NCBI GenBank assembly: GCA_030019255.1
Contig: JASEFK010000003.1
Location: 83,095 to 147,094, forward strand
From: Actinomycetota bacterium
Lineage (GTDB): Bacteria; Actinomycetota; Geothermincolia; Geothermincolales; RBG-13-55-18
DNA length: 64,000 nucleotides
Reading direction: 5' to 3'
Positions 10,865-36,794 of this stretch are shown here, piece by piece. The notes beneath the pieces are model-generated. The model ran no database searches, had not been told where the DNA came from, and saw nothing but the letters and a program-made list of their open reading frames with translations. How positions within the stretch are numbered: position 1 is the stretch's first letter; each line of letters starts with the position of its first letter. Both the position numbers and the translations under genes were made by a program.

Positions 10865-11728
10865 GTGGAGTTCTTCAAATATCACAGCCTGGGCAACGAC
10901 TTCATCCTCATAGACGCGCTTAAATCTCCCGTGCGCCTCTCCCCCGAGGACATCCGGATGCTCTGCGACCGCCACCTGGGCATAGGAAGCGACGGCATTA
11001 TCCTCATCGAACCCTCGCAGAAGGCCGCCTGCCGGATGGTGAACTACAACCCGGACGCCAGTGAGGCGGGGGTGAGCGGAAACGGCCTCCGCTGCCTGGC
11101 CAAGCACCTCTACGACACGGGCGGCTACACCGAAAAGCGCATGAGGGTGGAGACGCCCTCCGGAATAAGGGATATCACCATCCACACGGCCATGGGCAGG
11201 GTGACCACCATAGAAGTGAACATGGGCAAACCCGACTTCCGCCGCTCCTCCATACCCATGAAGGGCGAGGGGGAAGAGGCGGTAGACCAGCCCCTGGAGG
11301 TGGGCGGAAGGCGGCTGAACGTTACTTGCCTTTCCATGGGTTCCCCCCACTGCGTCCTCTTCCTGGAGGAGCCGGACGGGCACCTGGTACGGGAACTGGG
11401 GCCCGCCCTAGAGAACCATCCCGTCTTCCCCCTGCGGGTTAACGTGGAGTTCGCCCAGGTGATAAACATGTCCGAGATGAGGTTGCGCTCCTGGGAAAGG
11501 GGGGCGGGCGAGACGCTGGCCAGCGCCGCGGGAGCGGCGGCGGCGGTGGCGGCCGCCCTGCGCACCGGGAGGTGCAAGAGGAAGGTCCACGTTCAGCTTC
11601 CTGGAGGGCTCATGGAGGTGGAGGTGACCCCGAAAGGCGAGGTGCTTACGCGGGGACCGGCCCGGCGCGTGTTCAGGGGAGAGCTGGACGAGGACTGGAA
11701 GGAGAGAAGCCGCATCATCCTGGCTTAA
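10865..11728 (+). CDS. DapF-like (diaminopimelate epimerase family) protein lacking both catalytic cysteines
   Basis: The fold is plainly DapF: N-terminal KYHSLGNDFILID, GIGSDGIILIEP, NPDASEAGVSGNGLRC, SMGSPHCVLFLEE and WERGAGETLASAAGAAAAVA. In true DapF two cysteines act as the acid-base pair, in CGNGxRC and in the ACGTGA-type loop. Here the first is Ser71 (SGNGLRC) and the second Ser220 (LASAAGA), and the usual Gly-Thr-Gly after the second is Ala-Ala-Gly. The 287-aa length is normal and the reading frame intact, so it is not a decayed gene. Activity as an epimerase is doubtful; a binding role or altered chemistry is inference. AGGAGGG precedes GTG 10865. It converges on the FmdE-like gene, overlapping four bases. 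Confidence 0.85.
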   Translation: MEFFKYHSLGNDFILIDALKSPVRLSPEDIRMLCDRHLGIGSDGIILIEPSQKAACRMVNYNPDASEAGVSGNGLRCLAKHLYDTGGYTEKRMRVETPSGIRDITIHTAMGRVTTIEVNMGKPDFRRSSIPMKGEGEEAVDQPLEVGGRRLNVTCLSMGSPHCVLFLEEPDGHLVRELGPALENHPVFPLRVNVEFAQVINMSEMRLRSWERGAGETLASAAGAAAAVAAALRTGRCKRKVHVQLPGGLMEVEVTPKGEVLTRGPARRVFRGELDEDWKERSRIILA

Positions 11729-12303
11729 GGAACCCGGACGGCTTCGGCGCAGGGGATGCACAGCTTCTTCCCGTCCACCTCCACCAGGCGGGTTTGCATG
11801 GTGGGCTCCCCGCAGCGCTCGCAGGGCACCGAAGGATGTATGACCGCTTCCTCCGGGAGCCGGAAATCCACCTCCTCCACCCGGAAGAGCTCCTTGAGGG
11901 GGGCTTCCAGCAATTTCCGCAGCACCCTCTCCCTCCTCGCCGAAGGCTCCTCGTCACCCGGCGGGGGAAAAGCATCCGCCCTCAGGCTTACCCTCACCGC
12001 TTTGCCGGGGTGGCTCCTAGAAGCGAAGGTGAAGACCTGTTTCCCATGATCACGGAAAACCAGGTTTCCCTTGCCGAAGGTGCAGCCGGCCAGGTACTGC
12101 ACGGCATCCACGCTGCAGGAATCGTTTTCCACCACGCAAACCAGCTCCTCGTCCCGGGAGCGTTCTAGGCCCATCCTATCCATGGCCGCCCGGACGGCCC
12201 GGTACCCCAGGGCCAACCCCGGGCACAGGTGGCCGTGGAATCGGGCCGTCTCCTGCAGGTCCTCCGGCACCTTTACGTCACCGGGAATATCCATTCTCAT
12301 CAT
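11725..12303 (-). CDS. FmdE-family protein with C-terminal zinc finger
   Basis: ARFHGHLCPGLALGYRA, VENDSCSVDAVQYLAGCTFGKGNL and FRDHGKQVF are the signature of the FmdE (formylmethanofuran dehydrogenase subunit E) family. In bacteria it occurs far from methanogenesis and is thought to bind metals or molybdopterin-enzyme cofactors. The C-terminus (CERCGEPTMQ about 160-169, then CIPCA) is a TraR/DksA-type four-cysteine zinc finger, a common fusion in this family. The 192-aa length fits. GGGAG precedes the Met-Met start at 12303. It converges on the DapF-like gene, with stops overlapping; the two share a segment bracketed by inverted repeat elements. Confidence 0.85.
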   Translation of the reverse strand: MMRMDIPGDVKVPEDLQETARFHGHLCPGLALGYRAVRAAMDRMGLERSRDEELVCVVENDSCSVDAVQYLAGCTFGKGNLVFRDHGKQVFTFASRSHPGKAVRVSLRADAFPPPGDEEPSARRERVLRKLLEAPLKELFRVEEVDFRLPEEAVIHPSVPCERCGEPTMQTRLVEVDGKKLCIPCAEAVRVP

Positions 12304-28265: not shown

Positions 28266-29138
28266 ATGAGGTCGAGGATGGATTGGAGGGGTCGAACGGT
28301 GCTGGTCACCGGAGGGGGAAGCGGCATTGGGCTGGCTGTGGCCGCCGAGGCGGCGTCCCGGGGGGCCGTGCCCCTCCTGGTGGACATCAACCCGGAGGCG
28401 TTAGCAACCGCGGAGGCAACGGTGCGCCGCCAGGGCCACGGGGTCCACGCCTTCCGGGTGGACGTGACGGACATAGAAGCGGTGCGGGAACTGCGTCGTG
28501 CCCTCCGGGAGAGTTCCCTCTCCCCCGACGTCCTGGTGAACTGCGCCGGCATCACCCTGGTGGCCCACGTGACATCCACGGAACACGAGGAGTGGAAGCG
28601 CATCATCGACGTCAATCTCATGGGCACGGTGAACGTCATCCAGACCTTCCTGCCGGACCTCCTGAAAAAAAGCAGCGGTCACATCCTGAACATCGGATCC
28701 ATCGACGGGCTGGTGCCCATACCCGGCCAGTCCGCTTACTGCGCCAGCAAGTTCGCCGTTACCGGTCTCAGCGAGGTCCTTTACTACGACCTGAAACCCC
28801 AGGGGATAGGGGTCACCCTGGTTTGCCCGGGGTACGTGAACACGCCCATGGCCAGGTCCCACCCGGTCAAGGACCTTCCCCTCCGCTTCCGCGGTTGGGA
28901 GAAGGTGGCCCGGCTCCTGGAAGCATTCAGCAGCCGGCCGGAGAAGATAGCGTCCCGGGCCCTGGACGGGGTGGAAAAGGGCCGCTTCCTGGTCATACCC
29001 GGCCTCCCCTCGCGCCTCATGTACCACTACCGGCGCCTCTTCCCCCGCCTGGCCGCGGCCTCCGGGGTGGCGGTGGGAAAGCTCTATGCCCGCCTGCGCC
29101 GCCTGCAGAGCCGGAGGGCCCTCCAGGGGTGCTCCTGA
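28266..29138 (+). CDS. Short-chain dehydrogenase/reductase
   Basis: Classical SDR of 290 aa: nucleotide-binding TGGGSGIG near residues 15-22, Asp in LLVDINPEAL (NAD preference), NCAGIT, catalytic Ser in NIGSIDG and YCASK (Tyr-x-x-x-Lys), then PGYVNTPMA. The C-terminal 40 residues are basic (RLMYHYRRLFPRLAAASGVAV, LRRLQSRRAL) and may associate with membrane, as in lipid-acting SDRs. GGAGG lies ten bases before ATG 28266. It stands alone, 530 bp before the Fe-S operon. The substrate is unknown. Confidence 0.88.
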   Translation: MRSRMDWRGRTVLVTGGGSGIGLAVAAEAASRGAVPLLVDINPEALATAEATVRRQGHGVHAFRVDVTDIEAVRELRRALRESSLSPDVLVNCAGITLVAHVTSTEHEEWKRIIDVNLMGTVNVIQTFLPDLLKKSSGHILNIGSIDGLVPIPGQSAYCASKFAVTGLSEVLYYDLKPQGIGVTLVCPGYVNTPMARSHPVKDLPLRFRGWEKVARLLEAFSSRPEKIASRALDGVEKGRFLVIPGLPSRLMYHYRRLFPRLAAASGVAVGKLYARLRRLQSRRALQGCS

Positions 29139-29565: not shown

Positions 29566-29594
29566 TTGACCCGTACGCGTCTACGGGGCATAAT
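29566..29594 (+). promoter_or_regulatory. Sigma70-type promoter of the TetR/Fe-S operon
   Basis: TTGACC at 29566-29571, a 17-bp spacer, then CATAAT at 29589-29594. The predicted start point near 29601 falls inside the palindrome at 29599-29616, and the first gene starts at 29668. Confidence 0.75.
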
Positions 29595-29598
29595 AAAT

Positions 29599-29616
29599 AT
29601 ACCGACCGGTTGGTAT
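29599..29616. promoter_or_regulatory. TetR-type operator palindrome
   Basis: ATACCGACCGGTTGGTAT is an 18-bp near-perfect palindrome; only one position pair (G against T) breaks symmetry. Its form matches the ACCGACCGGT cores bound by many TetR regulators of fatty-acid or efflux genes. It covers the predicted transcription start, so a bound repressor would block initiation. The TetR protein encoded at 30901 is the obvious candidate. Confidence 0.75.
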
Positions 29617-29667
29617 GTTTTTTGAAGGGATCCGCTGCGGCGGGCGGGGTCGCGAGGGAGGAAGGAA

Positions 29668-30723
29668 ATGGAAGAGAGCTTGTATCACCGGCTGGCGGAG
29701 CACCTGGACCGGGCCATCAACGGCGTGCCCATGTCTCCCCAGCTAATGGAGATCCTGCACATCCTCTACCCCGGGGAGGAGGCGGAGGTGGCCCTGAACC
29801 TGGCCATCTACGAGAACCGTACCCTCCCACAGCTTAAGGAGCTGATGCCGGACAAGGCCGACCGCCTGGAGGACCTCCTCATGAGCATGGCGAGGAGGGG
29901 CACGGTGCTCACGGTTCAGAAGCCCGGCAGGGAAAGGATATATCGCCTGCTCCCCAGCATCGTGGGCTTCGTGGAGGTCCCCTTCCTCTCCGGCGAGGAC
30001 ACCCCGGAGATAAGGCGCCTAGCCCAGCTGTGGAAGGAGTACCTGGACGGCAAGTTCGGCGAGGAACTGGCCCGCAACGTCCCCCTCATCCGGGTGGTGC
30101 CGGTGGGCGAGTCCCTGCGCGATGGAACCCAGGTGCTTCCCTTCGACGCCCTGGAGGAGCTCCTGGAAAAGGCTGGATTCTACGCCGTGGGACACTGCCC
30201 CTGCCGGCAGATCGCCAGGTACACCGGGGAAGGATGCGACCACCCCACGGAGAGGTGCATGCACTTCGGGACCCTGGGACGGTACATGGTGGAGGTGGGA
30301 AAGGCCCGGGCCATCGACAAGGAGGAAGCCCTGGGCATGCTGCGCCAGGCCACGGAGGAGGGACTGGTGCACGTCTGCGACAACGTCGACGGTCTCCTGC
30401 ACACCATCTGCAACTGCTGTCCCTGCTGCTGCGGGTTCTTCCGCGCCAAGCTGAACCGCGGCCTGCACACCGTGTCCTCCTCCAGTTACGTGGCGCGGGT
30501 GGACGAGGAGGAATGCGCGGGCTGCGGCATCTGCGAGGAGCGGTGCCCGGTGGGGGCGGTGAAGGTCTCCGGGGACACGGCGGTGGTGGACCCCGAGGCG
30601 TGCATCGGCTGCGGGGTGTGCACCCCCACCTGCGGTGAGGAGGCCATCCGCCTGGAGGTACGGGAGAAGGTCTCCCCGCCTCCCAGCCTCCAGGACTTCA
30701 TCGCCGCCCGCATGAAGACGTGA
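29668..30723 (+). CDS. Cysteine-rich dicluster ferredoxin-like protein, paralogue 1
   Basis: 351 aa. Residues 1-100 look like a winged-helix-type helical domain (LHILYPGEEAEVALNLAIYE, DLLMSMARRGTVLTV). A cysteine motif CPCR (Cys177, Cys179) with GEGCDHPTERCMHFG follows, then the dense cluster CNCCPCCC (248-255). Two ferredoxin motifs follow: CAGCGICEERCP (Cys283, 286, 289, 293) and CIGCGVCTPTC (312, 315, 318, 322). It should bind two [4Fe-4S] clusters plus one or two metal centres of unknown type. No catalytic domain is recognised. It is the first gene after the operator, with AGGAAGGA before ATG. Two paralogues lie downstream. Confidence 0.85.
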   Translation: MEESLYHRLAEHLDRAINGVPMSPQLMEILHILYPGEEAEVALNLAIYENRTLPQLKELMPDKADRLEDLLMSMARRGTVLTVQKPGRERIYRLLPSIVGFVEVPFLSGEDTPEIRRLAQLWKEYLDGKFGEELARNVPLIRVVPVGESLRDGTQVLPFDALEELLEKAGFYAVGHCPCRQIARYTGEGCDHPTERCMHFGTLGRYMVEVGKARAIDKEEALGMLRQATEEGLVHVCDNVDGLLHTICNCCPCCCGFFRAKLNRGLHTVSSSSYVARVDEEECAGCGICEERCPVGAVKVSGDTAVVDPEACIGCGVCTPTCGEEAIRLEVREKVSPPPSLQDFIAARMKT

Positions 30724-30900
30724 GGCGGGAAGGCGACCGGGATACCGGGCGTGGCGCGCCGGGGGAGGAGAAAAAGACACCCTCGGATCCCCTCCTTTCG
30801 CCAGGCGGGGAGGGGGAGGATGAAGCGAGGCGCCGGAGGTTCAACTGGTAATATTTGCCTTAAGGTGCAGACCCGATCCGAATTTCGAGGAGGCCTGTAA

Positions 30901-31686
30901 ATGGGACGCAAAAGCGGGACGACCCTCCGCGCGGACGGCGGACCAAAGGCGGGCGCCTGCGGGAGCGGCGGCGAGCCCGCGCGAGTGGAAGCGACGCGGG
31001 ACGAGCGCCCCACCAAGGGCGCGCGCACCCGGCAACGCATCGTGGGGCACGCTACCCTCCTCATGTACGCCAACGGCTACGCCCGCACCTCCATCGAGGA
31101 CGTCATCCGCGCCGCGGGCATCACCAAGGGCAGCTTTTACTTCCACTTCCGGTCCAAGGAGGACCTGGGATATGCGGTCATCCAGAGCGCCGCGGATTAT
31201 ATCCTGGGCCGCCTGCGGGAGGCCCTGGAAAAACCCGGCCTCTCCTCCTGGGAACGCCTGGAGGCCATGCTGCGGGAGATACAGGGCATCGTGGAGGCCG
31301 CTGACTGCACGCGGGGCTGCATCCTGGGGAACCTGGCCCTGGAGACCAGCCACGACCATCCCGGCTTCCGGGAAGCCATCGCCGCTGCCTTCCGCGAGTG
31401 GTGGGACCTTATCGCCTCCCATCTGGAGAACATGAAAGAGGAGGGTCAATTGCCTCCCAACTTCGACTGCCAGGCCTACGCCCAGTTCGCGGTGAGTGCC
31501 CTGGAGGGCGGCATCATGATGAGCAAGGTGACCCGGGACCCGGGGCCCATGCGCACGGCGGCAAACCTCATGCTGGAACTCCTAAAAAAGGCATGGGAAG
31601 GGAAGCTTACCGCTGCGAAGCGGGTTCCCGCGCCCGGCGCGATCCGGAAACCGGGAAGGAAAGGACCGGGAAAGGAGGAGAAATGA
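30901..31686 (+). CDS. TetR family transcriptional regulator
   Basis: 261 aa. A 40-residue basic, disordered extension precedes the HTH domain; TSIEDVIRAAGITKGSFYFHF (about 63-83) is the classic TetR DNA-binding signature. The ligand domain contains CTRGCILGNLALETSHDHPGF, as in YxaF/AcuR-type regulators, with two cysteines that might sense a thiol-reactive or acyl ligand. A basic tail follows (AIRKPGRKGPGKEEK). GAGGAGG lies eight bases before ATG 30901. Its stop overlaps the next gene as ATGA, so regulator and paralogue 2 are translationally coupled. The palindrome at 29599 is its likely operator. Confidence 0.9.
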   Translation: MGRKSGTTLRADGGPKAGACGSGGEPARVEATRDERPTKGARTRQRIVGHATLLMYANGYARTSIEDVIRAAGITKGSFYFHFRSKEDLGYAVIQSAADYILGRLREALEKPGLSSWERLEAMLREIQGIVEAADCTRGCILGNLALETSHDHPGFREAIAAAFREWWDLIASHLENMKEEGQLPPNFDCQAYAQFAVSALEGGIMMSKVTRDPGPMRTAANLMLELLKKAWEGKLTAAKRVPAPGAIRKPGRKGPGKEEK

Positions 31687-32744
31687 CCGAGGACGTTTAC
31701 CGCCGATTGGCCGCTCACCTGGACAAGATGCCCATCGGGGCCCCCATGAGCGAGGAGCTCCTGGAGATCCTCCGCCTGCTCTTCACCCCGGAGGAGGCAG
31801 ATCTCGCCTGTAAGCTACCCTTCACCAACACCGGCCTCGAGGACCTCGCTTCGCAGCTCGGCGGGGACCCGGAGGCCCTGCGGGGGATGCTCGACACCAT
31901 GGCCACAAAGGGGACGGTCTTCAGGAGCACCAAGCAGGGGTTGACCAGGTACAGGCTGCTACCCACCCTGGTGGGCTTCTCGGAGACTCCCTTCTGGCCG
32001 GGAAAGGAAAACGAGACGGTGCGCCGGCTCGCTCCCCTGTGGATAAAGTACCTTTACCGGGGAGGATGGGGAAAGGAGATAGCCGGCCGCAAGGTTCCAC
32101 TGGTAAGGGCGGTGCCAGTGGAGGAAGAAGTTTCCTCCACCTCCGAGGTCCTCCCCTACGAGACGGTGAAGGACCTGGTGAAAAAGGTGGATTACCTCGC
32201 CGTCGCTTACTGCCCCTGCAGGCAGATGAAGGCCTACGTGGGGGAGGGGTGTGAACACGAAAGGGAGAACTGCTTCCATTTCGGTTCCATGGGACGGTAC
32301 ATCGTGGAGCACGGAATGGGAAGGCAGCTCACCCTGGAGGAGACACTGAAAAAGCTGCAGGAAGCCCACGAGGAAGGCTTGGTCTTCTCCGCGGACAACT
32401 ACCAGGGAAAGATTTCCACCCTGTGCTGCTGCTGCGGCTGTTGCTGCGTCTTCCTCCAGTGCCGAAAGGCCCTGGGCTACACCAACGCCATGGCGCCCTC
32501 CAATTACGTGGCCTCGGTGGATGAAGACGCCTGCACGGGATGCGGGACCTGCGAGGAACGCTGCCCGGTGGGGGCCATATCCCTGGACGGCAGGGAGACC
32601 GCCGCCGTAGACGCCGCCGCTTGCCTGGGCTGCGGCGTATGCGTGCCCACCTGCTCCGGTGAGGCGCTGGCCCTGAAGCGCCGGGAAGGAGCCGCGGGGA
32701 TCCCGACGCTGGAGGAGTTCCTGGCCAGCCAGCTGGAAAGCTGA
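31683..32744 (+). CDS. Cysteine-rich dicluster ferredoxin-like protein, paralogue 2
   Basis: 353 aa, collinear with paralogue 1: an N-terminal helical domain (EILRLLFTPEEADLACKLPF, MLDTMATKGTVF), YCPCRQ with GEGCEHERENCFHFG, then CCCCGCCC in place of CNCCPCCC, so one extra cysteine. Two [4Fe-4S] motifs follow (CTGCGTCEERCP, CLGCGVCVPTC). Start ATG 31683 lies in the four-base ATGA overlap with tetR, with GGAGGAG upstream. The shared order suggests redox or metal-transfer proteins that work together rather than simple ferredoxins. Divergence among the three is large enough to indicate old duplication. Confidence 0.85.
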   Translation: MTEDVYRRLAAHLDKMPIGAPMSEELLEILRLLFTPEEADLACKLPFTNTGLEDLASQLGGDPEALRGMLDTMATKGTVFRSTKQGLTRYRLLPTLVGFSETPFWPGKENETVRRLAPLWIKYLYRGGWGKEIAGRKVPLVRAVPVEEEVSSTSEVLPYETVKDLVKKVDYLAVAYCPCRQMKAYVGEGCEHERENCFHFGSMGRYIVEHGMGRQLTLEETLKKLQEAHEEGLVFSADNYQGKISTLCCCCGCCCVFLQCRKALGYTNAMAPSNYVASVDEDACTGCGTCEERCPVGAISLDGRETAAVDAAACLGCGVCVPTCSGEALALKRREGAAGIPTLEEFLASQLES

Positions 32745-32784
32745 TGGACGACAGTAGAAAGGAGACGGGAGGGAGAACGGGAAG

Positions 32785-33870
32785 ATGAGCGAGGAAATCT
32801 ACGAAAAACTGAGGGAGCTCCTGGACCGCCATCCGGCTGGATGTCCGCCGGCCGAGGAGATCATGGAGATTCTCAAGACCTTCTTCACCCCCGAGGAGGC
32901 CCGGGTGGCCCTAGGGCTGGGGTTCCGGCCCTTCCCCGTGGAGGAGGTCGCCCGGCGCGCCGGGGTGGGTCCCGAGGAAGCCCGGGTCCGCCTGGAGTCC
33001 CTGGCGGACAAGGGCGTGGTCTTCGCCCGGGAAAAGGACGGGGCCTGGGGGTACGCCCTGCTCCCGGTGATGCCGGGCATCTTCGAGTTCCCCTACATGA
33101 AGGGGCTGGACCCGGGGACGCGGGGGAAGCTCACCCCCCTGTGGAAGAGCTACCTGCCCAAGCTGTCGCGGGAATTCGGGACCCCGGAGGTCTCCTTCTC
33201 CCGCATCGTCCCCATCCAGGAGGAAGTGGAGAGCCAGCCGGGGGTGCTCCCTTATGACAAGGTCTACGACATGATAGACAAGGCCAAGGTGGTGGGCATC
33301 GCCCGCTGCGCCTGCCGGGAGCTGGAACAGAAGTGCGACGCCCCCCGCGAGGCCTGCATGCTCTTCGACGAGACCTGCACCTACCTCGTGGAGCGGGGCT
33401 TCGGCCGCTACTTGACCAAGGAGGAGATGAAGGAGAAGCTGCGCGAGTTCGACCGCGCCGGGCTGGTGCACCAGATAAACAATGTACAGGAGCGGCTGAC
33501 CTTCGTGTGCAACTGCTGCCCGTGCTGCTGCGGGCTGCTGCGTGCCTCCCTGGAGTGGGGGAACCCTAACGTCTTTACCTCCTCGGGGTTCCTCCCGGAG
33601 AACGACCCCGGGCTGTGCACCGGCTGCGGTATATGCGCCGACGAGAGGTGCCCCGTGCGGGCCATCACCATCGACGACGGGCGGGCGGTGGTGGACGAGT
33701 CCCGCTGCATCGGCTGCGGGCTCTGCGTGACCGGCTGCCCTAACCAGGCCATGAGTCTGAGAAAGAAAGCGGGAGTCGTCACTCCTCCCGCCACGACCGC
33801 GGAGATGGGCATGCGTATCCTGGAGCAGAAGGGAAAGCTGGAAGGGTTCCTGGAGCTGCTCAGCCCGTAA
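32785..33870 (+). CDS. Cysteine-rich dicluster ferredoxin-like protein, paralogue 3
   Basis: 361 aa, same architecture. The N-terminal domain reads EILKTFFTPEEARVALGLGF then an HTH-like EEVARRAGVGPEEARVRLESLADKG. The CPCR motif is CACR here, and the following Cys/His stretch is shortened (CDAPREACMLFDETC). CNCCPCCC is identical to paralogue 1. The first cluster motif, CTGCGICADERCP, has four residues before the last cysteine instead of three, which is known in some ferredoxins; the second is CIGCGLCVTGCP. GGGAGAACGGGAAG precedes ATG. Last gene of the operon, 40 bp after paralogue 2. Confidence 0.85.
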   Translation: MSEEIYEKLRELLDRHPAGCPPAEEIMEILKTFFTPEEARVALGLGFRPFPVEEVARRAGVGPEEARVRLESLADKGVVFAREKDGAWGYALLPVMPGIFEFPYMKGLDPGTRGKLTPLWKSYLPKLSREFGTPEVSFSRIVPIQEEVESQPGVLPYDKVYDMIDKAKVVGIARCACRELEQKCDAPREACMLFDETCTYLVERGFGRYLTKEEMKEKLREFDRAGLVHQINNVQERLTFVCNCCPCCCGLLRASLEWGNPNVFTSSGFLPENDPGLCTGCGICADERCPVRAITIDDGRAVVDESRCIGCGLCVTGCPNQAMSLRKKAGVVTPPATTAEMGMRILEQKGKLEGFLELLSP

Positions 33871-34300: not shown

Positions 34301-35986
34301 TCAGTTGGCCATTACCGGTGCGCCGCTCCGGGCGATAGCCTGTAGTTTCTCGTTCAGGTACAGCTCACGGCAGAGGAAGCGCCTCTTCTTCCCGCTGGAG
34401 GTCTTGGGGAGGGTACCCGCCGGGACCAGGACCACCTCGCGCACGGGAACCCCGATCTCCTCGCGAACCAGGGAGGAAACGGCGCGGGCCGTCTCCATGG
34501 CGGCCTGGGGGCAGGAGAGACGGGTCTCCCCTACCAGAACCAGCCTTTCCCGTCCCCTCCGGGTGGTCACCCCGAAGGCCACCGCGTTGCCCTTGCGCAT
34601 GCCCTCCACGCGCTCGGCGCAGCGCTCCACGTCCTCCGGGAAGAGGTTGCGCCCCCCGATGATGACCATGTCCTTGATCCTCCCCACCAGGAATAGGTTC
34701 CCTCCGGCCAGGTACCCCAGGTCCCCGGTGTGCAGCCAGCCACCCCGGAGGGCCTCCGCGGTGGCCGCGGCATCGCCCCAGTATCCCTGCATTAGGGAAG
34801 GACCACGCACGCACACCTCCCCCACCTCGCGCTCCCCAGCCGGGGTGCCGTCCTCCTTGACGATGCGGACCTCCAGGCCACGGAGCGGACGTCCCAGGGA
34901 TACCAGGCAGCGGGCATCCGCGCTCTCCGGCGCGCAGGGGACGGCTTCTCCTCCTTCTTCGATTCCCCTCCTGGACACGTAATCTTTCTGGTAGATGTTA
35001 CCAGGCTCCGGGAAGGTTACCGCCAGGGTGGCCTCGGCCAGCCCGTAGACCGGGTAGGGAACCTCCGGCTTGAGGCCGTACTCCGCGCCGGCCTCCACCA
35101 GGTCGTCCAGGACCTGCGGGTCGATGGGCTCCGCCCCGTTCAGGGCCAGGCGGAGGGAGGAGAGGTCTGTCCCCTCCAGCCCACCGGACCGCAGCACGCG
35201 GGTGGACAACGCGAAGGCGAAGTTGGGACCCCCGGTGATGGTGGCCCGGTATTCGCCGCAGGCACGGAGCCAGAGCGAGGGGTCGGCCACGAAGCGCTGT
35301 GGCGACATGAGTACCAAGCTGCAACCCGCGCCCAGGGCGGTGATCAGGAAGCCGATGAGCCCCATATCGTGGTAGAGGGGCATCCAGGAGACCACCGTGT
35401 CCCTGGGGCAGGCGCCCACCTTCTCGGCGATGGCCCGGGCGTTGGCCAGGATGTTACCGTGGGTGAGGATGACCCCCCGGGGCTCGCTGGTGGAGCCGGA
35501 GGTGAACTGGACCAGGGCCACGTCTCCCCTTCCCCGAGGCACGGGAGAGGCCTCCTCCCCGGCGGGGAGGTCTTCCATGGCCACCAGGCGGAACCCCCCA
35601 CCCAAGTCCGACACCAGGGGGAGGAAGGCACCGGGGAGGGCCAGCACCTCCGCTCCCACCTTCTCCAGCCTCCGCCTGCTCTGCTCCATGAAGGAGGAGG
35701 GATCCACGGTGCGCATGGGGAGTGGAAGGGGCACGGCCACCGCCCCAATGGCCCAGCATCCCAGCAAGGTGAGCACGGTGTGAGGGGTGGTCTGGGCCAT
35801 AATACCCACCCGGTCCCCGGGCCTCACCCCCAGCCCGGCCAGCCCCGCAGCCGCGCGCAGCGCCTCCCGCATGAGTTCACGAGGCGTGAAAACCCGCTCA
35901 CCTTCCTCTTCAAGTATGATCAAGCCCCGGCTGGAGCGCTCAACACCCGATGCTACCCCTTCCCAGACATTGCTCGCTCTCCTCAT
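34301..35986 (-). CDS. Fatty acyl-AMP ligase (FAAL/FadD32-like)
   Basis: 561 aa ANL enzyme of the FAAL branch: LVQFTSGSTSEPRGVILTH phosphate loop, SWMPLYHDMGLIGF (the FAAL-typical SWLPxYHDMGLIG block), NGAEPI, YGLAEATLAVTF, GWLHTGDLGYL, GRIKDMVIIGGRNLFPEDVE and KTSSGKKRR with catalytic Lys. FAALs activate long fatty acids as acyl-AMP and pass them to acyl carrier proteins for polyketide or lipid synthesis, not to CoA. ATG 35986 is taken as start: AGGAGGTGCCT precedes it, while GTG 35992 overlaps the ribosome site. No PKS or ACP gene is adjacent. Convergent with the Fe-S operon. Confidence 0.88.
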   Translation of the reverse strand: MRRASNVWEGVASGVERSSRGLIILEEEGERVFTPRELMREALRAAAGLAGLGVRPGDRVGIMAQTTPHTVLTLLGCWAIGAVAVPLPLPMRTVDPSSFMEQSRRRLEKVGAEVLALPGAFLPLVSDLGGGFRLVAMEDLPAGEEASPVPRGRGDVALVQFTSGSTSEPRGVILTHGNILANARAIAEKVGACPRDTVVSWMPLYHDMGLIGFLITALGAGCSLVLMSPQRFVADPSLWLRACGEYRATITGGPNFAFALSTRVLRSGGLEGTDLSSLRLALNGAEPIDPQVLDDLVEAGAEYGLKPEVPYPVYGLAEATLAVTFPEPGNIYQKDYVSRRGIEEGGEAVPCAPESADARCLVSLGRPLRGLEVRIVKEDGTPAGEREVGEVCVRGPSLMQGYWGDAAATAEALRGGWLHTGDLGYLAGGNLFLVGRIKDMVIIGGRNLFPEDVERCAERVEGMRKGNAVAFGVTTRRGRERLVLVGETRLSCPQAAMETARAVSSLVREEIGVPVREVVLVPAGTLPKTSSGKKRRFLCRELYLNEKLQAIARSGAPVMAN

Positions 35987-36794
35987 AGGCACCTCCTCTC
36001 TTCTCCATCGGGCCGCGAAAATATCCGCTACCCACCTTCCCTTTCACGACTACCAAATCGGTTTACCCGGGATGGAACGGCGCGAACCAGCAACCGAATC
36101 CCGCACGAGCCGCGCATTTTCCCGAAGCCTGTCCTTGCCCTCTATGAACGCGCCTCTCGCAAGAAGTCGGAACGGTCCGAGCCGGGAATCGGAACCCGGA
36201 ACTTGGTTTTTCCGCCCATCCTTCAACCAAGTAAACACGCGGGGCCGCACATGGTTACCGGAAATCCGGATTTTCCAAATCCACGGCACTGGAAATGAGG
36301 AATGGCGAGGCCGGCACGATTTGGAAAGGACACATCCCGGCATCGGGATGGGAATGGCGGGACCCCCGGTCCGGGGGTTGAGGGGCAGGCAAGTGGAGGG
36401 GAAGAAGAAATAGCGACCTTCCGCAAGCACACTCCCGTCACCGGGAGGAAACGGGAAGACACCTCCTCCGCAGGCTGACGGAATACAACGTGGGCGGAGG
36501 GAATCGGGCTTGAATCGGAAAGGCGACGGTTTCGATGCAACGGGAGCCCGACCGGGTTTGAGAAAGAAGGATCCGGACGAGCGCAGCGGAAATAGCGAAA
36601 ACCCGGCCCTCGCCTGCAGGTGCGGGGGAAGCGGAGGTCAAGGGAGTCCAGGAAAGAAATGGGGCCTTTTGCATGCCCGGGTGAGGGGTGAGAACGAGGG
36701 TGTTAGAATATACCCCGGAGGGAGGATGATCCAGGAGCGACAATTCCGGAGCCACATCAGGGAAAACGCGGACTTACGCTTGTCCGGTCTGGGA
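35987..36794. other. Long intergenic region before the SDR leader
   Basis: About 800 bp of low-complexity, non-coding-looking sequence without ribosome sites in usable positions. It continues into the imperfect duplication at 36795. Confidence 0.45.

Follow-up and report, generated by a model that had tools for sequence, protein, structure and literature searches.

A predicted TetR-controlled operon of free-standing proteins related to the IsrA front domain in an actinomycetote of the Geothermincolia

Introduction

What purpose is served by an operon that encodes three cysteine-rich, ferredoxin-like paralogues together with a TetR regulator? The question is raised by a locus in a 64,000-nucleotide stretch of DNA (positions 83,095 to 147,094 of contig JASEFK010000003.1, assembly GCA_030019255.1; hereafter the window) from an actinomycetote of the Geothermincolia, for which an earlier note, made from the letters alone, had proposed an undescribed system. 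The paralogues are referred to here as FAM1, FAM2 and FAM3 and their family as FAM. The operon proves to be a genuine and conserved regulatory pairing centred on an iron-sulfur (Fe-S) family of which little is known, and represents a novel stand-alone form of the IsrA type. The middle domain of these proteins has no named family, but wholly undescribed the system is not, its relatives being the front domain of IsrA and, judged from its published description, the ferredoxin of the isr operon (PMC10134865).

An unusual anaerobic hydrogenation has been proposed to take place at the front domain of IsrA, a region for which the paper on the isr operon gave no domain assignment (PMC10134865). The same domain is now found free-standing, and often under predicted TetR control, in hundreds of loci; the organisms include syntrophs, Geothermincolia and Asgard archaea, and many of the loci also encode nickel chaperones alongside. 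The FAM family points to a sizeable set of redox proteins of anaerobes that has received hardly any study, and is more interesting than the label 'ferredoxin' suggests. A family scan gave at least 517 relatives, of which the 80 best, chosen by similarity to FAM1, were examined as loci; L and G numbers below denote individual loci and genomes.

Architecture of the FAM proteins

FAM1, FAM2 and FAM3 are more than plain ferredoxins, being three-part proteins. The C-terminus matches Fer4 (4.8e-12) and related models and carries two CxxCxxCxxxC motifs in two stretches; Foldseek finds the same 2[4Fe-4S] fold in ferredoxin domains of the Nfn, HydABC and HdrA type, the likeness being limited to that part. 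The helical, winged-helix-like N-terminus described in the earlier note is borne out by profile matches, to Lrs14/ArsR winged helices at E 0.003-0.05 and to TrmB in 21 of 41 FAM members. The domain between these two is not covered by any Pfam, NCBIfam or PHROGs model, Fer4 at the C-terminus being the sole family match, and a sequence search of the PDB returned ferredoxins and weak N-terminal winged helices but nothing for the middle domain. AlphaFold2 models FAM1 confidently, both as a whole (predicted local distance difference test, pLDDT, 91.9; predicted template-modelling score, pTM, 0.88) and in the middle domain (88.4 and 0.81). When the whole protein was compared with the PDB by Foldseek, the ferredoxin part only was matched, and the middle domain by itself matched no solved fold (best E 0.61) despite its confident model. 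The profile and structure-prediction search that had been suggested for these proteins thus leaves a middle domain without named family or solved fold.

Conservation points to the same domain. Ten cysteines outside the ferredoxin part (listed in Table 1) are invariant in 65 homologues, as are R180 and the eight ferredoxin cysteines. The unusual metal site suspected earlier is supported. The CPCR or CACR motif, the CxCCxCCC cluster and the two [4Fe-4S] motifs are all present in the sequences; of the CNCCPCCC-type cluster that had been ascribed to each paralogue, the FAM2 version is corrected to CCCCGCCC. Two CxC motifs within the domain, C177xC179 and C248xC250, are invariant in the 65 proteins and align to the CSC and CNC of the IsrA-like proteins described below.

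Relationship to IsrA

The isr operon of Acetobacterium wieringae comprises isrA, hypA, hypB, a gene for a '4Fe-4S ferredoxin' of 350 amino acids (aa) and a further hypA; four of the five proteins are strongly isoprene-induced, IsrA and the ferredoxin being co-induced (PMC10134865). The first ~270 aa of these two proteins align with each other and matched no known domain, and a six-cysteine cluster of IsrA (C180xC182, C254xC256), which lies at the end of a predicted substrate tunnel, is the proposed substrate site and possibly a nickel site (PMC10134865).

A search with the FAM profile (A2) retrieved open reading frames (ORFs) of 898-923 aa in Spirochaetota at about 1e-46. Each of the five ~900-aa Spirochaetota ORFs examined is either placed between HypA and HypB or adjacent to them, and both of those scanned carry Fer4, Fer4_20 and Pyr_redox_2, matching the published description of IsrA. 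Alignment of FAM with the front domain of these IsrA-like proteins by hhalign gave 99.9% (E=2e-36) over 252 columns, the winged helix included, and nine of the ten FAM cysteines are in register. Judged by these alignments, it is well supported that the N-terminal ~260 residues of FAM are homologous to the front of the IsrA-like chains of ~900 aa.

IsrA (VUZ27132.1; PMC10134865) and FAM thus have in common a front domain of ~260 residues with a winged helix and a cysteine-rich site, followed by Fer4, and an occurrence in anaerobes, and across the family HypA/HypB and TetR neighbours recur. IsrA differs in its length of ~900 aa and in its Fer4_20 and FAD/NAD(P) domains, whereas the window proteins end after the 2[4Fe-4S] ferredoxin and have no adjoining hyp gene. 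Since the window proteins are without the flavin and Fer4_20 modules, they are best regarded as a sister stand-alone variant and not as IsrA; no ~900-aa fusion was seen in the window genome. The isr '4Fe-4S ferredoxin' (VUZ27135.1, ENOG4105DQ9), compared by its published description, resembles FAM in its 350 aa, of which the first ~270 are alignable with IsrA and are followed by a ferredoxin domain; it belongs to an isrA-hyp operon, whereas the window genes form a tetR operon with three copies. In three Spirochaetota loci (L234, L236, L248) a stand-alone FAM of 386-405 aa was seen beside HypA and HypB, with no IsrA fusion in view.

Control by the TetR regulator

The TetR protein of the window matches PF00440 (9.6e-13) and PF16925 (2.2e-21). 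In the examined loci, TetR genes flank 28 of 99 FAM genes, a fraction that is no census given how the loci were picked, compared with less than 2% expected by chance, as estimated from gene number with ~22 TetR matches in the 2.9 Mb genome. The window regulator is 53% identical to the TetRs of L049 and L066 and 29-35% identical to those of Syntrophales and Spirochaetota, and it scores mostly 97-199 bits against these FAM-linked TetRs, the best other TetR of its own genome reaching 58 bits. A survey for co-occurrence with tetR, as the earlier note had proposed, shows the pairing across phyla.

The predicted operator of the window, the near-palindrome ATACCGACCGGTTGGTAT, is the sole site in the window at up to three mismatches (0.03 expected) and the sole occurrence in the 2.93 Mb genome. 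With an operator count of one, the idea of a wide TetR regulon was rejected for this organism.

As far as FAM1 loci were readable in the class, the operator changes with the regulator. FAM1 genes associated with the window-type TetR (TetR1) have the upstream site ACCGACC[AG]GTTGGT in G000, G031, G032, G039, G040 and G041, the regulator itself being out of view in G032 and in the second G039 copy; those associated with a different TetR (cluster 17, TetR17) have one or two copies of ATATTAN6TAATAT instead (G016, G025, G030, G035, G037, G043). The latter sites likewise stand upstream of FAM1 in G036, G042 and G044, the set with the TetR in view being the other six genomes. At loci L005, L006, L007, L009 and L153-L160 the usual regulator of FAM1 has been replaced by the other TetR with its one or two ATATTAN6TAATAT sites, a natural regulator swap. 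L049, which has another gene order, carries the perfect palindrome ATACCGACTAGTCGGTAT.

Further from the window, Syntrophales, Syntrophomonadaceae and Spirochaetota have TAGACGACCGGTCTA between the -35 and -10 of their operons, whether the order is FAM-tetR or tetR-FAM. With at most one mismatch it occurs once per genome, upstream of FAM, in all 14 of 14 genomes of Desulfobacterota and Spirochaetota, which were chosen for possessing a FAM locus. When 155 genomes belonging to a single order were surveyed, 29 sites turned up, spread over 27 genomes, and none for the reversed pattern among the genomes listed. Downstream of these sites lie FAM genes (21 cases, two of them partial), a molybdenum-bis(molybdopterin guanine dinucleotide) (Mo-bisMGD) oxidoreductase gene (three), tetR followed by Mo-bisMGD (two), a gene for a flavin mononucleotide (FMN) enzyme (two) and a contig end (one), where the FMN and Mo-bisMGD labels are motif-based, with Pfam for one Mo-bisMGD example. 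As predicted operators, the TAGACGACCGGTCTA sites mark a small regulon of redox genes. With the operator following the regulator in relatives, and with one site per genome, TetR control of the FAM operon is supported on comparative grounds, as the earlier note had supposed.

Several of these sites deserve individual mention. In the order of G011, TAGACGACCGGTCTA precedes a Mo-bisMGD oxidoreductase, or tetR and Mo-bisMGD, at L180, L181, L182, L189 and L200, which would be a second regulon target, and at L176 and L201 the operator precedes a gene for a nitronate-monooxygenase/FabK-like FMN enzyme, recognised by motif only. At L203 the FAM-like gene under the operator seems to be split into ORFs of 117 and 207 aa, 173-718 bases downstream.

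Linkage to HypA and HypB

HypA is encoded in 15 of the 80 loci and HypB in 17 of the 80, beside or near stand-alone FAM genes and in varying order. MHE is retained in every FAM-linked HypA whose start had been correctly called, as is the CH site in the HypB proteins. Four genomes (G006, G010, G011, G013) have FAM-HypAB clusters with no [NiFe]-hydrogenase detected in assemblies of unknown completeness.

Distribution and history of the paralogues

The 80 best relatives come from Actinomycetota, Desulfobacterota, Bacillota, Chloroflexota, Spirochaetota, Asgard archaea and others; FAM1 orthologues of 83-89% identity place the window genome with Candidatus Solincola (Geothermincolia, Actinomycetota), and a search of a plasmid collection gave three distant relatives only. 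The window genome itself holds 17 copies of the cysteine-rich core. Eight of the 17 match over nearly full length and about half of the copies match from residue ~130-150 onward only, so that the winged helix may be absent there. One of the short paralogues (L126, 6226-7831) lies 1 bp from a LarB-like gene (AIR carboxylase family, PF00731), a possible nickel link, and another (L128, 3815-7591) follows HGD-D genes of the 2-hydroxyacyl-CoA dehydratase/benzoyl-CoA-reductase type.

It had been suggested that the three copies of the operon form a heteromeric complex. In the family tree FAM1 and FAM2 group together, and FAM3 falls in a large clade of 360-aa proteins of Syntrophales, Spirochaetota and others; the operon therefore unites old subfamilies and not fresh duplicates. 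FAM2 is absent from close relatives (G039, at L002, and L004), where the order is FAM1-tetR-FAM3, all three genes being present in G040 of the same genus; in G043 and G035, tetR-FAM2-FAM3 is located apart from FAM1, and many genomes carry FAM genes singly. This variable company, together with the membership of FAM3 in a different old subfamily, leaves the suggested complex unsupported.

Proposed mechanism and alternatives

The interpretation put forward here, to which we give just short of an even chance, is that the operon is self-contained and yields, on induction, free-standing proteins akin to the IsrA front domain, which act as C=C reductases fed through their own ferredoxin domain, possibly as Ni-Fe-S proteins. 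TetR on the start-site palindrome would repress FAM1-tetR-FAM2-FAM3, its own gene included, until released by a small molecule, probably unsaturated or electrophilic. Electrons from the ferredoxin pool or from a separate flavoprotein would then enter the two [4Fe-4S] clusters of FAM and pass to the unusual cysteine-rich cluster of the middle domain, at which a C=C bond would be reduced; nickel supplied by HypA/HypB may form part of that cluster. Homology, conserved cysteines, operator-regulator pairing and the HypA/HypB linkage in relatives are the elements that sequence comparison shows; reductase activity, nickel, the electron donor and route, the substrate and the inducer are what we infer.

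A number of points weigh against this interpretation. To our knowledge, no member of the FAM family has been biochemically characterised, and IsrA itself is 'putative'. The link between FAM and IsrA runs via IsrA-like relatives and the published domain description, not via the IsrA sequence, and the FAD/NAD(P)H and Fer4_20 modules in the same chain are absent from the window proteins (351-361 aa, Fer4 only). There are no hyp genes at the window locus, and the genome has a [NiFe]-hydrogenase, with HypB on another contig, so that nickel is proposed here by analogy. The isr ferredoxin is treated as a ferredoxin by its authors, and a published neighbourhood survey reported no HypA/HypB association for its group (PMC10134865), unlike the stand-alone FAM members examined here, which do show one.

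The main rival holds that FAM proteins are multi-cluster ferredoxins feeding separate reductases (Mo-bisMGD, old-yellow-enzyme (OYE) type or IsrA-like), with the cysteine-rich domain as an extra relay. That the proteins end in a 2[4Fe-4S] ferredoxin, that a 350-aa protein accompanies the presumed enzyme in the isr operon, and that genes for Mo-bisMGD, OYE-like and further oxidoreductases occur nearby makes this a distinct possibility, but one that we doubt, as ten invariant cysteines in a separate domain exceed the needs of one relay cluster, in IsrA the proposed active site lies in this very domain, and FAM often shares its operon with a dedicated TetR and with no further enzyme. Storage or delivery of nickel or iron, in place of redox catalysis, would agree with the HypA/HypB linkage and with the LarB-like gene next to one own-genome paralogue; it is nevertheless very improbable, given that the ferredoxin domain and the homology to IsrA suit redox work, that the window locus is without metal genes and that FAM was not seen next to any known metal regulator. 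No more can be said for the view of FAM as a family of DNA-binding sensors of redox state or metals, to which the N-terminal ArsR/Lrs14/TrmB matches and the frequently linked regulator genes would lend themselves: the helix at the recognition position tends to be acidic, with a net charge that averages -1.3 in 65 proteins, the same winged helix occurs inside the ~900-aa IsrA-like proteins, and about half of the own-genome copies may be without it. A DNA-binding role for the winged helix was judged unlikely for the first two of these reasons, and the sensor explanation as a whole is highly unlikely.

The regulator raises a further alternative, namely an electrophile or thiol-stress operon like nemRA, with reactive electrophiles sensed through a cysteine of the TetR and detoxified by the FAM proteins. 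The NemR structure 4yze matches the Syntrophales TetR at E=1e-17 and the window TetR at 1.7e-10, and the AcuR model gives 120 bits with the window TetR, below its curated cut-off of 247. The NemR-nemA/gloA and AcuR systems belong to the same TetR branch and likewise have a self-controlled operon and a cysteine at the NemR C106 position, to which the cysteine of GC[IPL]xGN aligns and which is a cysteine in all FAM-linked TetRs inspected; in L017 an OYE-like gene follows FAM-TetR. NemR, however, senses electrophiles via C21 and C116 (PMC5297802), whereas the window TetR lacks counterparts of both, with no cysteine before residue 108 (233-aa frame) and none 10 residues past the C106 equivalent, and its target genes encode unrelated Fe-S proteins. 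Other TetR relatives whose role is unknown, 3bru and 3qbm among them, also have a cysteine at the C106 position, which is therefore no proof of thiol sensing. We consider the stress-operon explanation improbable.

A bolder generalisation can be formulated, although we consider it rather unlikely: FAM may be a very large unrecognised class of Ni-Fe-S C=C reductases in strict anaerobes, built on one small catalytic domain of new fold that holds a cysteine-rich Ni-Fe-S cluster. A genome would have as many as 17 paralogues, every one adapted to a particular unsaturated substrate and several under dedicated TetR switches, IsrA being the flavin-fused special case. The stand-alone FAM proteins offer small soluble proteins for probing the metal content and chemistry of the cysteine-rich site, and their operators offer a means of screening inducers, and hence substrates.

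Locus layout and neighbouring genes

The gene order given in the earlier note (paralogue 1, tetR, paralogue 2 with an ATGA overlap, paralogue 3) was recovered exactly, as four ORFs in one direction downstream of a promoter and a near-palindrome (Table 1). The promoter and palindrome also lie where they had been placed, but do not overlap as had been thought: the palindrome begins 4 bp downstream of the -10 hexamer and therefore covers the start-site region, not the hexamers. The promoter-like match alone is within chance (one found, 0.6 expected). GAGGAGG precedes the tetR start at 30901.

Table 1. Coordinates of the features of the FAM operon within the window.
Feature	Position	Strand	Remarks
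Sigma-70-like promoter TTGACC-17-CATAAT	29566-29594	+	Motif match; supported by adjoining conserved operator
Predicted TetR operator ATACCGACCGGTTGGTAT	29599-29616	+	Near-palindrome, 8/9 positions paired; 4 bp past -10
Ribosome-binding site of FAM1, GGGAGGAAGG region	29656-29665	+	Read in sequence
FAM1	29668-30723	+	351 aa; stand-alone Fe-S protein with predicted IsrA N-domain
FAM1 winged-helix-like domain	29737-29952	+	Residues 24-95; profile matches and predicted structure
FAM1 cysteine-rich domain	30088-30462	+	Residues 141-265; C177, C179, C190, C197, C248, C250, C251, C253, C254, C255
FAM1 2[4Fe-4S] ferredoxin domain	30496-30657	+	Residues 277-330; Fer4 match
tetR	30901-31686	+	TetR repressor, 261 aa; TetR_N and TetR_C_13; AcuR/NemR-like
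FAM2	31683-32744	+	353-aa paralogue; ATGA overlap with tetR (tetR stop 31686, FAM2 start 31683)
FAM3	32785-33870	+	361-aa paralogue; large 360-aa subfamily (Syntrophales, Spirochaetota, others)

Upstream of FAM1 lies a short-chain dehydrogenase/reductase (SDR) gene (28266-29138, +), and a fatty-acyl-AMP-ligase-like gene (34301-35992, -) converges on FAM3; both positions are kept in L002, L003, L004 and L037, and a functional tie of these neighbours to the FAM operon is possible. Elsewhere in the window, an FmdE-like protein, judged by eye, is encoded at 11725-12303 (-), and in the FAM loci L045 and L056 the gene after Mo-bisMGD is likewise FmdE-like.

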